Part shown: piece after piece, positions 7,456-12,743 of the stretch
Position numbering within the stretch: the stretch's first letter is position 1
Layout: each line of letters begins with the position of its first letter
DNA from: Polaribacter sp. Hel_I_88
GTDB taxonomy: Bacteria > Bacteroidota > Bacteroidia > Flavobacteriales > Flavobacteriaceae
NCBI RefSeq assembly: GCF_000687935.1
Contig: NZ_JHZZ01000001.1
Coordinates: 3,544,001-3,608,000, forward strand
Reading direction: 5' to 3'
DNA: 64,000 bases
The notes under the pieces: model-generated
The model's database searches: none
Told to the model about the DNA's origin: nothing
Seen by the model: the letters and a program-made list of their open reading frames with translations, nothing else
Program-made: the position numbers and the translations under genes

Positions 7456-7798
7456 TTATTTTAAACATTTTTCTTTTGATAATTTCTGCAACTTTTTACA
7501 ATTTTCTAAATTAAAGAAAATAAAGTAAAAGTCTTTTAAAATCTAATTTCTTTTTTTTGTTAAAGAGAGTTGCACAAAGTTTTTAATGAGATTCACAGAG
7601 AAACTTCTTATTACGCAATAATTTTAATTTCAAAACAATAATTATAGTAAAAATCTTATTTTTCCTAAACGAAACTCTGTGATTTTTTTCTCAACGTATA
7701 TCCGTTAAAATATTTTAAAACCATCTTTATAAAATTTCCAAACATCTATCAACTTAAAAAACTTGAAATCTTAAAAATTCATTTATTTTTGTTCTTGT
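7456..7798. other. 343-bp intergenic region upstream of prfB
   Basis: No gene is visible. The right end carries the prfB promoter. The centre holds an imperfect inverted pair, ATTCACAGAGAAAC near 7590 and ACTCTGTGATTT near 7672. It recalls CACAGAG-rich intergenic repeats elsewhere in the window (33.2 and 42.4-42.6 kb). The rest is plain AT-rich sequence. Confidence 0.4.
7763..7791 (+). promoter_or_regulatory. Bacteroidota-type promoter of prfB
   Basis: TTG at 7763-7765, an 18-bp spacer and TATTTTTG at 7784-7791 match the -33/-7 consensus of the primary sigma factor of Bacteroidota (TTTG, about 19 bp, TAnnTTTG). The ATG at 7799 is only 8 bp beyond the -7 element, so the transcript should have an extremely short leader. 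Confidence 0.55.
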
Positions 7799-8887
7799 AT
7801 GATTACACAAGACCAACTTAAAGATATTGCTATTAGAATTGAGAAACTAAAAGGTTATTTAGAAATCGAAAAAAAACTCATAGAAATAGCCAATGAAGAA
7901 GAAAAAACGGTAGATCCTAATTTTTGGAACGATCCAAAAGCTGCTGAATTGTTAATGAAAGAGCTCCGTTTTAAAAAGAAATGGGTAGACGATTACAACC
8001 AAATAATTCGTTTAAATGAAGATTTAAATGTGTTTTACGATTTTTATAAAGAAGGTGAAGCAGAAGCAGAAGATGTAGAAAATCAATATGAAAAAACGAG
8101 TACATTTTTAGAAGATATTGAGTTTAAAAATATGCTTTCAGAAGAAGGCGATTCTTTATCTGCAACCATACAAATTACTGCTGGGGCTGGAGGAACAGAA
8201 AGTTGCGACTGGGTAGAAATGCTTTCTAGAATGTACACAATGTGGGCAGAAAAGCAAGGTTTTAAACTAAAAACACTCAATTATCAAGCAGGAGATGTTG
8301 TGGGTATCAAAACAATTACTATTGAAATTGAAGGCGATTATGCTTTTGGTTGGCTAAAAGGGGAAAATGGTGTACATAGATTGGTGCGTATTTCACCTTT
8401 CGATTCCAATGCAAAACGCCATACAACATTTGGATCTGTATATGTTTTTCCTGTGGCAGATGACTCCATTGAAATTGACATAAATCCTGCTGATGTAGAA
8501 ATTGTTACTGCACGTTCAAGTGGAGCTGGAGGACAAAATGTGAATAAAGTTGAGACAAAAGTTCAGTTAACTCACAAACCCTCAGGTATTCAGATTTCTT
8601 GTTCAAACTCACGTTCTCAGCATGACAATAGAGCAACTGCCATGAAAATGCTAAAGTCTCAATTGTACGAAATTGAATTGCAAAAACAACAAGCTGCTAG
8701 AGATGAAATTGAATCTGGCAAATTAAAAAACGAATGGGGAAGTCAAATAAGAAATTACGTAATGCATCCTTATAAATTAGTAAAAGATGTTAGAACAGGC
8801 CACGAAACTGGCAATGTAGATAATGTTATGAATGGCGATATCAATCCGTTTTTAAAAGCTTATTTAATGTTGAATGGGCAGAAATAG
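7799..8887 (+). CDS. prfB: Peptide chain release factor 2 (RF2)
   Basis: Terminates translation at UGA and UAA codons on the ribosome. The 362-residue protein has an N-terminal helical domain, the SPF stop-codon-recognition tripeptide at 199-201 ([14 protein letters not shown]) and the GGQ peptidyl-hydrolysis motif at 244-246 ([14 protein letters not shown]), so both key sites are intact and the SPF tripeptide marks RF2 rather than RF1. The autoregulatory +1 frameshift found in many prfB genes is absent: the equivalent region reads AAA GGT TAT TTA GAA in one uninterrupted frame, with no in-frame TGA. ATG at 7799 is the only sensible start and has no Shine-Dalgarno sequence. Confidence 0.97.
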
Positions 8888-8972
8888 AGGCCTATACTAG
8901 CCTTCCCAAAGGGAAGAAACTCTAATCTTTGTGGAATTTTTTTAAAAACGCAATAATTAAATCGATTACAAA
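8888..8972. repeat. Short palindromic repeat remnant between prfB and arsC-like gene
   Basis: CTTCCCAAAGGGAAG at 8899-8913 is a palindrome. It is closely related to CTCCCTTTGGGAG at 8994-9006, which lies inside the first codons of the next gene. The pair looks like one small repeat family inserted on either side of the gene start. Confidence 0.45.
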
Positions 8973-9353
8973 ATGACTAAAACTAAAGATATTCTCCCTT
9001 TGGGAGAAAGGGGGCTTTTAATATTCCACAATCCAAGATGCAGAAAATCTAGAGAAGGTTTACAGATTTTAGAAAATTCTGGTCAAGAATTCGAAATTGT
9101 AAAATATTTAGAAGATGTTCCATCAGAAACAGAACTGAAAGAAATCATAGAAATACTAGAAATCTTCCCAATTCAATTAATAAGAAAAACAGAGAAAATC
9201 TGGAAAGAAGAATATAAAGGAAAAGAACTTTCGGATTCAGAAATCATCAAAGCAATGGTTCAAAATCCTAAATTAATAGAAAGACCAATTGTCATTAATC
9301 ATGATAAAGCAGTTATTGGAAGACCTCCTGAAAATATAAAGTCAATTTTATAA
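8973..9353 (+). CDS. ArsC/Spx-family reductase (arsenate-reductase-like) with repeat-derived N-terminal extension
   Basis: A thioredoxin-fold protein of the glutaredoxin-dependent arsenate reductase family. The core starts at about residue 15: LLIFHNPRCRKSREGLQILE, with the catalytic Cys23 in the NPRC loop. RPIVINHDKAVIGRPPE (about 103-119) keeps the Arg-Pro-Ile and GRPPE elements of the family. The usual N-terminus would be M-x-x-I-F-H-N-P; here fourteen extra residues (MTKTKDILPLGERG) come from a palindromic repeat that reads through in frame. The last residues (ENIKSIL) also differ from the usual ENVLELL, and a fragment of that usual tail survives downstream at 9445-9486. Arsenate reduction is not proven; many homologues have unknown substrates. 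Confidence 0.82.
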   Translation: MTKTKDILPLGERGLLIFHNPRCRKSREGLQILENSGQEFEIVKYLEDVPSETELKEIIEILEIFPIQLIRKTEKIWKEEYKGKELSDSEIIKAMVQNPKLIERPIVINHDKAVIGRPPENIKSIL

Positions 9354-9401
9354 ATTTAAAATTACTTTTTCAAAAGTATGAGTTTCTTCCCGAGTTTATA
9401 T

Positions 9402-9417
9402 TGAGCGTAGTCGAAAT
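9402..9417. repeat. GAGCGTAGTCGAA-type intergenic repeat
   Basis: TGAGCGTAGTCGAAAT at 9402-9417 matches the core of the inverted repeat at 21529-21604 (GAGCGCAATCGAA and TTCGAGCGCAGTCGAG). This short motif is frequent between flavobacterial genes, from memory. Here it lies between the arsC-like gene and its detached tail fragment. Confidence 0.5.
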
Positions 9418-9444
9418 AGGAAGATTAAGATAGGATTCAAAGAA

Positions 9445-9486
9445 ATTATGGGCAAATCTCCAGAAAATATTTTAGAATTGCTCTAA
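9445..9486 (+). pseudogene. Detached C-terminal tail of an arsC-like gene
   Basis: The frame starting at 9445 reads I-M-G-K-S-P-E-N-I-L-E-L-L-stop. It aligns with the C-terminus of the preceding gene (V-I-G-R-P-P-E-N-I-K-S-I-L-stop) and resembles the standard family ending even more closely. It has no start codon or upstream coding sequence, so it is a remnant left by duplication or insertion. Confidence 0.55.
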
Positions 9487-9584
9487 ATAACTTCACCGAA
9501 TTTTGTTTAACTTATTTTTAACTTATTTAGACTAAACTTAAAAGGACATTTGTAGTCTTACATTAAATCTTAAATTAAAAAGTT

Positions 9585-12050
9585 TTGACTAAACAAATAT
9601 CTATTTTTATTTTTTGCCTTTTTTCGGCATCAGTTTTATTTTCTCAAATGGCAATGCCAATTAAAGAAATTTCTATTACAGGAAAAGTAGTAGACTCAAA
9701 ATCAAACCAACCCTTAGAGTACGCAACCATTGTGTTAAAAAACACGGATACTCAAAAAATTTCTGGAGGAATTACAGATATGGAAGGTAAGTTTGATATT
9801 AAAACTCCAACAGGAAATTATGAAATTAGTGTAGAATTTATTTCTTTCAATTCTAAAAAATATCCCAAACAAAATATTACTAGTGATTTAGATTTAGGAA
9901 CTATAAAGTTATCTGAAGACTCAAAGGCTTTAGATGAAGTCGTTATTATCGCAGAAAAAACAACGGTTGATATTCGCTTAGATAAAAAAGTTTTTAATAT
10001 TGGTAAAGATTTATCAATTAGAGGTGGTAATGCAAGCGACGTTTTAGGAAACGTACCTTCTGTGCAAGTAGATGTTGAAGGAGCAGTTAGTTTGCGTGGA
10101 AACGAAAACGTAACCATTTTAATTGATGGAAGACCAAGTGCATTAGTGGGTATGAATGGTGCAGAAGCATTAAGACAAATTCCAGCTGAAGCAATAGAAA
10201 AGGTAGAAGTTATTACCTCTCCATCTGCAAGATATGATGCTGAAGGAACAGCTGGTATTTTAAACATCATTTTAAGAAAAAATAAATTAACAGGTTTTAA
10301 CGGTTCTGTTCAGTTAGATTTAGGATATCCTGCAAGAGTAGGTACTGCTTTTAACGCAAACTGGAGAACAGAAAAATGGAATCTTTTTACAAACACTGGT
10401 TTTAGATATAATGAAACTCCAGGAAATGCTTTTTCAGATTCTGATTATCTCTCTTCTTCTACTCAAAATGCAAAAGTTGTTGAACAAAGAAATTTTGACA
10501 GGTTAGGAAGATCAATATTTACAAGTTTTGGAGCAGAATATTATCTAACTGAAAAATCAAGTATTATTGGAAATATAATATTTAGCAAAGGAAATGATGA
10601 TGATGTGAATACGAATGATATTCAAAGATTTAACGCTCAGGGAGGTATTAACGAAGCTACTTTTAGAACAGAAGGTGAAGGAGAAGATGAGCAAAGAGTA
10701 CAATATACCTTAGATTATGTAAATAATTTTGATGATACTGGTAAAAAATTATCAATCAACTTACAATATTCTACAGAAGCAGAAGACAAATTAAATAATA
10801 TTACAGAAGTAGACACACAAGCAAATCTTTTAAACGATTTAGAATTGGTTTTAGAAGATCAAGATGAAAATAGTGGTTTATTACAAATAGATTATGTGCA
10901 TCCTGTTGGAGAAGATATTCAGTTTGAAGCAGGTTATAGAGGTAATTATAGAGATATTTTTAATAGTTTTTATTTAGCAGAAAGACAAACTTTTCCTGAT
11001 GGAGAACTAATACCAGATGCTGGTTTAAATAATTCATTTAATTACGAAGAATTTGTAAATGCTGCCTATTTTCAATATGGTCAAAAATTTAATAAAATTT
11101 CATTGTTAGCAGGTTTACGTTATGAATACACAAACATAGAAATTGTACAACAAACATCTACAACCAATGATGAAAGATCGTATGGAAACTTATTCCCAAC
11201 TATTAACGTTGGCTACGAATTAAATGATAGTGAAAGTTTTACAATAGGGTATAATAAAAGAATTAGAAGACCAAGAGGAAGAAGTTTAAATCCTTTTCCA
11301 AGCAGATCTAGTGAAAGTAATATTTACAGTGGTAATGTAGATTTAAATCCTGTAATTACAGATGCAGTAGATTTAGGGTATTTAAAACGTTGGGATAAAT
11401 TTACATTAAGTACTTCAATTTACTATAATATTAGTAATGATAATTGGGAACGAATTCAAGAAAATACAGGAGAAATTACAGATAATGGAGATCCAATAAC
11501 AAGAAGGTTTCCAGTAAACTTGTCTACAGAAGAAAGATTAGGTTTTGAATTTACCTTAAACTACAGACCTTTTAAAGTTTGGAACATCAATAGTGATTTT
11601 AATTTATTTCATGTAACAACTGATGGAGATTACACAAGTCCAACTACCAATGTTACACAAAGTTTCGACTTTGAAAACACTGCATTTTTTATACGATTGA
11701 ATCAAAAAATAACATTGCCTTCTAAAATCGATTTACAAATTAACTCAAATTATAGAGGTCCTAATAGAAATGCGCAAACAGAAAGTCAAGGTGTTTTTAG
11801 TATGAATCTTGCTGCAAGTAAAGATATTTTAAAAGAAAAAGCATCTATTAGTTTAAATTTTAGCGATGTTTTTAACAGCTCAATTAGTAGAAGAACTACA
11901 AATTTACCAGGTTTTTTAGATCAATATTCAGAGTTTCAATGGAGAGAACCACAAGTTAGAGTAAGTTTTGTATATCGTTTTAATCAAAAGAAAAAAGAAA
12001 TTAGAGAAAACAGAGAAGATATTGGTGGTGGAGAAGATTATGAAGGATAG
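9585..12050 (+). CDS. TonB-dependent receptor with carboxypeptidase-like regulatory domain
   Basis: An 821-residue outer-membrane transporter. The start is TTG at 9585: it gives a proper signal peptide (residues 1-20, ending in VLFSQ), whereas the first in-frame ATG would remove it. Residues about 28-110 form a CarboxypepD_reg-like domain (ITGKVVDSKSNQPLEYATIV). Residues about 120-220 form the plug, with DVLGNVPSVQVDVEGAVSLR and ILIDGRPSALVG. The remainder is a beta-barrel of the outer membrane protein beta-barrel type. The C-terminus has an acidic tail after the last strand (REDIGGGEDYEG). No SusD partner is present, so it is not a polysaccharide-utilisation SusC. The substrate is unknown. 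Confidence 0.88.
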   Translation: MTKQISIFIFCLFSASVLFSQMAMPIKEISITGKVVDSKSNQPLEYATIVLKNTDTQKISGGITDMEGKFDIKTPTGNYEISVEFISFNSKKYPKQNITSDLDLGTIKLSEDSKALDEVVIIAEKTTVDIRLDKKVFNIGKDLSIRGGNASDVLGNVPSVQVDVEGAVSLRGNENVTILIDGRPSALVGMNGAEALRQIPAEAIEKVEVITSPSARYDAEGTAGILNIILRKNKLTGFNGSVQLDLGYPARVGTAFNANWRTEKWNLFTNTGFRYNETPGNAFSDSDYLSSSTQNAKVVEQRNFDRLGRSIFTSFGAEYYLTEKSSIIGNIIFSKGNDDDVNTNDIQRFNAQGGINEATFRTEGEGEDEQRVQYTLDYVNNFDDTGKKLSINLQYSTEAEDKLNNITEVDTQANLLNDLELVLEDQDENSGLLQIDYVHPVGEDIQFEAGYRGNYRDIFNSFYLAERQTFPDGELIPDAGLNNSFNYEEFVNAAYFQYGQKFNKISLLAGLRYEYTNIEIVQQTSTTNDERSYGNLFPTINVGYELNDSESFTIGYNKRIRRPRGRSLNPFPSRSSESNIYSGNVDLNPVITDAVDLGYLKRWDKFTLSTSIYYNISNDNWERIQENTGEITDNGDPITRRFPVNLSTEERLGFEFTLNYRPFKVWNINSDFNLFHVTTDGDYTSPTTNVTQSFDFENTAFFIRLNQKITLPSKIDLQINSNYRGPNRNAQTESQGVFSMNLAASKDILKEKASISLNFSDVFNSSISRRTTNLPGFLDQYSEFQWREPQVRVSFVYRFNQKKKEIRENREDIGGGEDYEG

Positions 12051-12051
12051 T

Positions 12052-12130
12052 CTTTGGGCGTTTTAACAGGCTTTCCATTATATCTTTTTTCCGAAAAAGA
12101 AAAAAGGATGCCATTTCAATCCTTAACGCA
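12052..12130. repeat. Long flavobacterial intergenic repeat, copy 1 (GGGCGT...TAACGCA type)
   Basis: It starts TTTGGGCGTTTT, contains AGGCTTTCC, a hairpin of TCTTTTTTCC against AAAAAAGGA, then GGATGCCATTTCAATCC, and ends TTAACGCA. A degenerate second copy with the same start and end lies at 63699-63790. It directly follows the TonB receptor stop and precedes its terminator, so it lies in the 3' untranslated region. Confidence 0.6.
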
Positions 12131-12144
12131 CTTACTCAAACTTA

Positions 12145-12179
12145 TAAAAAACTCGTTCAAATTTTTGAACGAGTTTTTT
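12145..12179 (+). terminator. Rho-independent terminator of the TonB receptor gene
   Basis: ACTCGTTCAA and TTGAACGAGT form a 10-bp stem with a short ATTT-containing loop, followed by a T tract. The same stem sequence is reused 210 bp further on. Confidence 0.85.
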
Positions 12180-12355
12180 GTGTTTTATGGAATTGATATT
12201 TTAATTCTCAGCTCTATCAAAATTTGTATTAAATACAATATTGATAATTTTATCAACCTTTCATATTAAAATAAATAACAAATAATTTAACTTCTCAATT
12301 ACTAGCACCTTTTAAGTTAACTTATTGTTCACGAAATAATTTTTCAAATTAATAC

Positions 12356-12393
12356 CATAAAAAAACTCGTTCAATTCCTTGAACGAGTTTTAT
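12356..12393 (-). terminator. Terminator of the 57-residue membrane protein gene (bidirectional hairpin)
   Basis: ACTCGTTCAA and TTGAACGAGT again form a stem. On the minus strand it is followed by a run of seven T, 21 bp beyond the stop of the small gene. Between the two hairpins (12180-12355) no gene or feature is visible. Confidence 0.75.
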
Positions 12394-12413
12394 ATAAAAA
12401 TATATTTTAAAAA

Positions 12414-12587
12414 CTACTTTCCTTCAGCAGCTTCTTTTGCTTCTTTCTTTAATTTAAAGTTTTCCCAAATTGTTCCTCCAATCCAATAAGGAACTACAAA
12501 AGTTAATAAGAATATTAACAACCAAAAACCAGCTGTAAAAATAAACATGAATAAAACTAATCCTGAAAATTGAGAAAAATCTAACAT
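12414..12587 (-). CDS. Small membrane protein (57 residues), unknown function
   Basis: A short gene encoding MLDFSQFSGLVLFMFIFT and then a second hydrophobic stretch WLLIFLLTFVVPYW, which together make one long or two short membrane segments at residues about 9-35. After IGGTIWENF comes a basic and then Ala/Glu-rich cytoplasmic tail (KLKKEAKEAAEGK). It is complete with ATG and TAG and is followed by its own terminator, which argues for a real gene. Its start is 156 bp from the divergent fumC start. I recognise no family. Composition and coding pattern match the neighbours. Confidence 0.68.
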   Translation of the reverse strand: MLDFSQFSGLVLFMFIFTAGFWLLIFLLTFVVPYWIGGTIWENFKLKKEAKEAAEGK

Positions 12588-12743
12588 TGTTGAAAATTTG
12601 TAAATATTATGTTACAAAAATAACACATATTTTCAAATTGTGCGAATAAATTAAAAAAACTTTTAACAGGATTTATACAAAACTGTTTATCTGTAATCAT
12701 TTTAGATTGTGTAAATTTGTTACTCTTAAAAAACATCCAAAAA

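Follow-up and report, generated by a model that had tools for sequence, protein, structure and literature searches.

The 3′ end of the arsC-like gene of Polaribacter sp. Hel_I_88 exists twice: the downstream end is ancestral and stands apart from the gene, and the upstream end, which the gene uses today, is linked to a dispersed repeat (R). We read the locus in this way because the downstream fragment is native to its position, and because the present end and the spacer behind it are homologous to those of another species of the genus (genome G119). The orphan tail is a small but real relic of gene-end turnover rather than a functional element. The locus lies in a window of 64,000 nucleotides (the whole stretch of DNA analysed) of this genome (G000; chromosome of 3,996,527 bases), in which prfB, arsC and a TonB-receptor-like gene follow one another (Table 1). 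The arsC gene ends ...GRPPENIKSIL-TAA, and GGCAAATCTCCAGAAAATATTTTAGAATTGCTC-TAA at 9451–9486 encodes GKSPENILELL-stop; both ends can thus be read as the first-pass annotation had given them, except that the distance from the stop to the GGC codon of the fragment, given there as 92 bp, measures 97 bases (9354–9450). The similarity between the two tails begins further upstream than first stated, pairing the fragment from 9439 to 9483 with the present end of the gene, and the repeat said to lie between them proved to be the core of R.

Table 1. Features of the arsC locus (positions in the window)
Feature	Positions	Strand	Evidence
prfB (peptide chain release factor 2), left-flank anchor	7799..8887	+	PF03462 and PF00472
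arsC-like gene, glutaredoxin-type arsenate reductase family (predicted), 126 aa, present end KAVIGRPPENIKSIL	8973..9353	+	PF03960 1.5e-16; TIGR00014
arsC N-terminal extension MTKTKDILPLGERGL: in-frame R2-kind repeat (CTCCCTTTGGGAGAAAGGGGGCTT) in place of the usual start ATGATAAAAATA	8973..9017	+	
Tail 1: present arsC end plus stop	9306..9353	+	22 bases around the stop closest to G119
AT-rich spacer of 29 bases, from new stop to R	9354..9382	+	alignment of spacer and R with the insert of G119
Dispersed repeat R, 55 bases, core GAGCGTAGTCGAA at 9403–9415	9383..9437	+	copies elsewhere
Tail 2: orphan native arsC end KEIMGKSPENILELL-stop	9439..9486	+	shuffles; identity with G009
Ancestral arsC–TonB-receptor intergenic region with TTTAAC boxes	9487..9584	+	collinear in alignment with G009, G119 and G082
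TonB-dependent receptor-like gene, right-flank anchor	9585..12050	+	PF14905 2.7e-107, PF07715, PF13715

By score, the arsC product belongs to the glutaredoxin-type arsenate reductase family (whole protein against TIGR00014, 123.8 bits with a curated cut-off of 106.05; PF03960, 60.9 against 24), and its reductase activity is a prediction. Two TTTAAC boxes, 11 bases apart, lie within 9487–9560 upstream of the TonB-receptor gene and are present at many loci of the genus; they look like a candidate regulator or promoter site. An Rfam scan of 7700–12600 returned a single family above its gathering score, the Flavo-1 RNA (RF01705; 53.7 bits, cut-off 42), which lies further downstream on the minus strand (12060–12140). 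Window positions 12070–12121 are also 91% identical to a stretch between prfB and arsC in genome G009 (L101). Structured RNA in the insert itself was considered and rejected—the window copy showed no excess stability and no hairpin beyond chance (z 0.15; other strand, −0.32).

We scored tails with a profile built from 140 regular arsC tails and run over the 400 bases after each arsC stop (shorter stretches of 42 and 191 bases at L209 and L213). An arsC match was found in 152 of the 166 genomes of the genus, and three weaker matches (G091, G100 and G156) were left out; 151 loci were read and 147 parsed (L145, L149, L179 and L191 did not parse), 146 of them from the genus, with two from G129, and one (L032, genome G037) from another family of the order. 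Tail 2 scored 2.1, a value that none of 5,000 dinucleotide shuffles reached (best, −9.2); the similarity is therefore not within chance, which was one of the two conditions under which the first-pass annotation would have given up its proposal. The sole other locus that stood out was that of G119, where KTDIIMPSKNILEIV-stop scored −7.3 (reached by 1 of 5,000 shuffles), and the next-best score was −20.0. The double-ended arrangement is found at these 2 of the 147 loci only. We regard the orphan native tail as well established, with little room for doubt.

Alignment with close relatives, the check that had been proposed, identifies which of the two ends is native. In the sister species (G009), the single arsC gene runs unbroken into CTCCAGAAAATATTTTAGAATTGCTCT, followed by the same intergenic region and the TonB-receptor gene. 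A run of 27 bases of that end (CTCCAG...CTCT) is unchanged in the window fragment and absent from the window gene; upstream of these 3′ 27 bases, where identity with G009 is perfect, the match of tail 2 becomes poorer. When a 27-base stretch (shifted by one) was compared with 131 tails (those of the 147 that fit the motif used, window tail 1 among them), G009 matched at 26 positions, the next-best tail at 21 and the median tail at 16. The sequence directly after tail 2 is collinear with G009, G119 and G082, and the orphan tail of G119 likewise adjoins the intergenic region common to G009 and G082. On this comparative evidence, namely that the G009 gene reads into identical bases and that the G119 orphan tail also borders the native intergenic region, the fragment at 9439–9486 is identified as the native 3′ end of arsC. 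The intact equivalent of the remnant occupies its place in G009 and G082, whose loci are single-ended and collinear; the earlier view that the fragment is nearer to the family-like end is borne out by these undisplaced single ends and the double end in G119. The G009 gene (L004) has lost the stop of its ancestor and continues for four more residues (SMTK), and its tail looks as if it had once been out of use.

The upstream end points to G119. Among the 146 other loci, G119 comes closest over the 22 bases that surround the present stop (19 of 22; next, 16), and when the G000 insert (spacer plus R) was aligned with the G119 insert, none of 5,000 shuffles did as well. G119 has an R-like element in the same place, diverged and with an edge that is not sharply defined, which joins arsC at about the same lysine codon; its core also aligns in inverse orientation, less well (score reached by 147 of 5,000 shuffles). 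The homology of the inserts, the R-like element in the same place and the join near the same codon make a single origin of the double-ended arrangement likely. Two other sources were tried and rejected: inverted copying of the upstream region of G009 as the source of the spacer is not well supported (score 24, reached by 214 of 5,000 shuffles), and a tail made de novo from repeat sequence is ruled out by the full family KAVIGRPPENI in tail 1.

Copies of R were present in several members of the genus in a similarity search in which four candidates were scored per genome. The copy most like that of the window lies between prfB and arsC in G009 (L101, 8221–8275; 96% identity over 55 bases, opposite orientation); the next G009 copy matched at 86% and one in G183 at 93%. 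Within G000, the next copy was 88% identical over 56 bases and another 90% over 40, with shorter pieces up to 100%. The exact 13-mer GAGCGTAGTCGAA occurs twice in the genome, and the wider family is commoner; GAGCGTAG is common to the G000 and G009 copies, but it recurs in cores from other members of the genus (for example, 26 of 26 bases in G121 and G099), so that a shared origin of the G000 window copy and the G009 copy is no more than likely. R thus stands before arsC in G009 and, inverted, after arsC in G000, on opposite sides of the gene in sister species.

The GGGCTT-type edge of R coincides with gene boundaries far more often than random points do. Of 19 copies, among which L113 and L115 represent one gene in two species, 15 had the edge at a boundary: 9 at a stop and 6 at a start, compared with 5.1% of random points. 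A second set comprised 13 copies from the window's own genome (12 with the short R2 core and one with the R core); here the edge was at a boundary in 9 (8 at a stop and 1 at a start; random, 5.5%). For these counts, a gene was taken to be any open frame with 100 codons or more (60 or more where a start-side frame runs off the stretch read) rather than an annotated gene. Altogether, coding-region boundaries accounted for 24 of 32 edges (window 9437/9438, L101–L116, L222, L241–L252, L255 and L256), many of which touch or overlap the stop codon, as against about 5% of random points. The window copy is one of the exceptions: its edge (here GGATT, adjoining the orphan tail at 9437/9438) falls inside arsC coding sequence.

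R is REP-like in being dispersed, mostly outside genes and with termini that adjoin or provide stop codons. REPs of the GTAG and CGTC families are described as having termini that often give stop codons to flanking open reading frames, and as lying in some cases at the N-termini of open reading frames (PMC3733652). R resembles the REPs described there in being small, dispersed, mostly between genes and sometimes at an N-terminus, but differs from them in its greater length (55 bases or more), its GGGCTT edge and its at least two kinds of core (PMC3733652). A further difference is that no copy of R or R2 was found near the 6 Y1_Tnp (RAYT) loci examined, out of 20 Y1_Tnp matches in G000, G009, G119 and G082. 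A search outside the genus gave no match at E ≤ 1e-8 in 148 other genomes of the family sample (one of them of the genus), and such a search would miss diverged cases, as a genus search of the same type left the G119 arsC locus out of its candidates—the double end of G119 was recognized by reading the arsC loci. Judged by titles and the starts of abstracts, searches of the open-licence literature brought up no paper on R.

A related repeat has altered the other end of the gene. At 5 of the 147 loci (G000, G009, G026, G082 and G154), the usual arsC start is replaced by an in-frame R2-kind repeat (PLGERGL), with the ATG 18 codons before HN.RC in every case; these five loci do not form one clade in the flank trees, R2-like copies are dispersed in the G000 genome, and the G119 gene has no such N-terminus. 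Rickettsia palindromic elements differ from the R2-kind repeat in sequence and in phylum, and the position here is that of gene ends. What the two have in common is that a repeat is fused into a protein gene, here at the N-terminus of arsC (PMC3733652). A repeat edge of one kind thus adjoins arsC in two places, near codon 3 at its upstream end and at the orphan tail on the downstream side. This agrees with a second copy of the gene that was headed by a repeat and has lost its body.

Gene remnants arise from the loss or the replacement of a duplicate copy. The present case is like them in that a truncated arsC 3′ end stands at its native position, collinear with the downstream gene and beside an intact copy, and is unlike gene remnants in general in that it retains only about 15 arsC codons and has the edge of a REP-like repeat as its junction. 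Our best reading, which we hold at about an even chance, is that tail 2 is what remains of a second arsC copy that lost its body. The ancestor would have had two arsC 3′ ends in a row: the upstream copy, with an end and a stop of its own, would be the present gene, and the downstream, native copy would have been headed by R. Loss of the body of the downstream copy would then have joined R directly to the last 15 codons, the native intergenic region and the TonB-receptor gene. The double end probably arose once and is now present in G000 and G119, and not in their sisters; it may have spread between lineages by homologous recombination or have been lost again elsewhere, and renewed loss would be easy because the two tails are direct repeats.

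The locus has two versions of the stretch that runs from KAVIGRPPENI to the stop. In two species, R joins the second version within coding sequence and at nearly the same codon; an edge in such a position, as against the boundary position in 15 of 19 copies, is what a deletion would leave. We infer the two-copy intermediate, because no second arsC match (E ≤ 1e-3) was found near arsC in 156 arsC-bearing sequences (most with about 1–1.5 kb either side, five with 14–18 kb). None of these sequences holds both complete copies. Of the two mechanisms that the first-pass annotation had offered, deletion of most of a tandem copy keeps the best fit, but lacks a surviving tandem pair among those 156 sequences. 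It is further weakened by the rarity of the arrangement (2 of 147 loci) and by the diverged R-like element of G119 with its ill-defined edge. Displacement by repeat insertion is insufficient alone, because GRPPENI is present twice, and R copies do not normally have duplicated flanks.

The main alternative is that homologous recombination imported a foreign arsC 3′ part together with the spacer and R, replacing the native end with no local duplication; the right-hand crossover would have fallen inside the old tail, leaving the native tail as a scar. Trees of 47, 43 and 37 chosen rows bear on this and are among the evidence for a lost second copy. Both flank trees place G000 with G009 (support 99 in each), the TonB tree places G119 with G082 (support 97), and the arsC tree places G000 weakly with G119 (93/51), with G009 next to that pair (95/78). 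Between G000 and G009, the dS of arsC is 0.86 (0.56–1.61) and that of the flanks 0.48 (0.37–0.62) for prfB and 0.40 (0.30–0.50) for the TonB gene, an excess that speaks both for import and for a lost second copy, although the arsC interval overlaps that of prfB. The dN of arsC for this pair is 0.115 (0.070–0.186), compared with 0.019–0.051 in six other pairs with flank dS of 0.21–0.49 (one genome used twice). It reaches 0.121 in the pair G024–G104, with flank dS of 0.80. The gene is fast-evolving in general, and the excess divergence between G000 and G009 is suggestive only, because G024–G104 also has a high arsC dN; such an excess would follow if the genes of the two species were not strictly orthologous.

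Import would also account for a tail 2 that is native to the G000/G009 pair beside a tail 1 and insert that match G119, for the drop in identity with G009 upstream of the 3′ 27 bases, as a crossover there would give, and for the lack of a tandem pair in the 156 sequences. However, the donor itself would need a double end, which only moves the origin elsewhere, and the N-terminal extension is common to G000 and G009. The informative sites among G000, G009, G119 and G082 (12 for G000 with G119, 8 for G000 with G009 and 4 for the third grouping) include five in the tail among those 12, so that the arsC body without the tail stands at 7 against 8. The body does not favour G119 over G009, which counts against the lost-copy reading as well, and a paralogous or foreign body is only a possibility. 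We consider import possible, at clearly less than an even chance.

The close bracketing of R by a direct repeat (spanning −77 to −45 and +1 to +33) could instead mean that R inserted into the end of arsC and duplicated a long target there, of at least 33 bases, of which the gene kept the first copy. Such duplication is out of keeping with the family: in a test of 20 scored matches in 19 sequences, the window copy alone had flanks that 0 of 500 shuffles equalled, followed by L222 (a 16-base repeat; 3 of 500) and L106 (11 of 500), and the remaining 17 ranged from 83 to 475 of 500. The two tails also differ more than a recent duplication would allow, and we judge this origin improbable. Still less credible, and very improbable in our view, is that tail 2 is a translated mini-gene of 12 codons (ATG 9448 to stop 9486), such as a leader before the TonB-receptor gene. 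An in-frame ATG does open the tail in both G000 (MGKSPENILELL) and G119 (MPSKNILEIV), and 6 of 19 R copies lie just before a start codon; yet the frame occurs in two species only, the 3′ part of each follows its own sister's native tail rather than the other, and the insert holds no RNA structure beyond chance. Chance likeness of an 11-residue stretch, short as it is, has a negligible probability in view of the shuffles and of the 27 bases identical to G009 at the orthologous position.

The loss of a second copy thus remains our preferred origin for the relic. With its small size and a repeat of a known kind, it is of limited interest, and closer attention is due rather to how the repeat family behaves at gene ends. 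The value of the relic lies in being a readable intermediate in the change of a C-terminus, in which old and new ends survive together with the repeat that joins them and the sister species are single-ended. A broader proposal, which we put forward as rather unlikely, is that a REP-like family rewrites gene ends in the genus: its GGGCTT edge would settle at coding-region boundaries, supplying stops and occasionally start regions, and arsC would have been changed both ways, its N-terminus being replaced in five species and, through the junction of R and tail, its C-terminus in two, with the old end still legible as an intermediate state. Together with the in-frame capture of the N-terminus, the wider edge pattern would make the role of small repeats in the evolution of gene ends in Bacteroidota countable.
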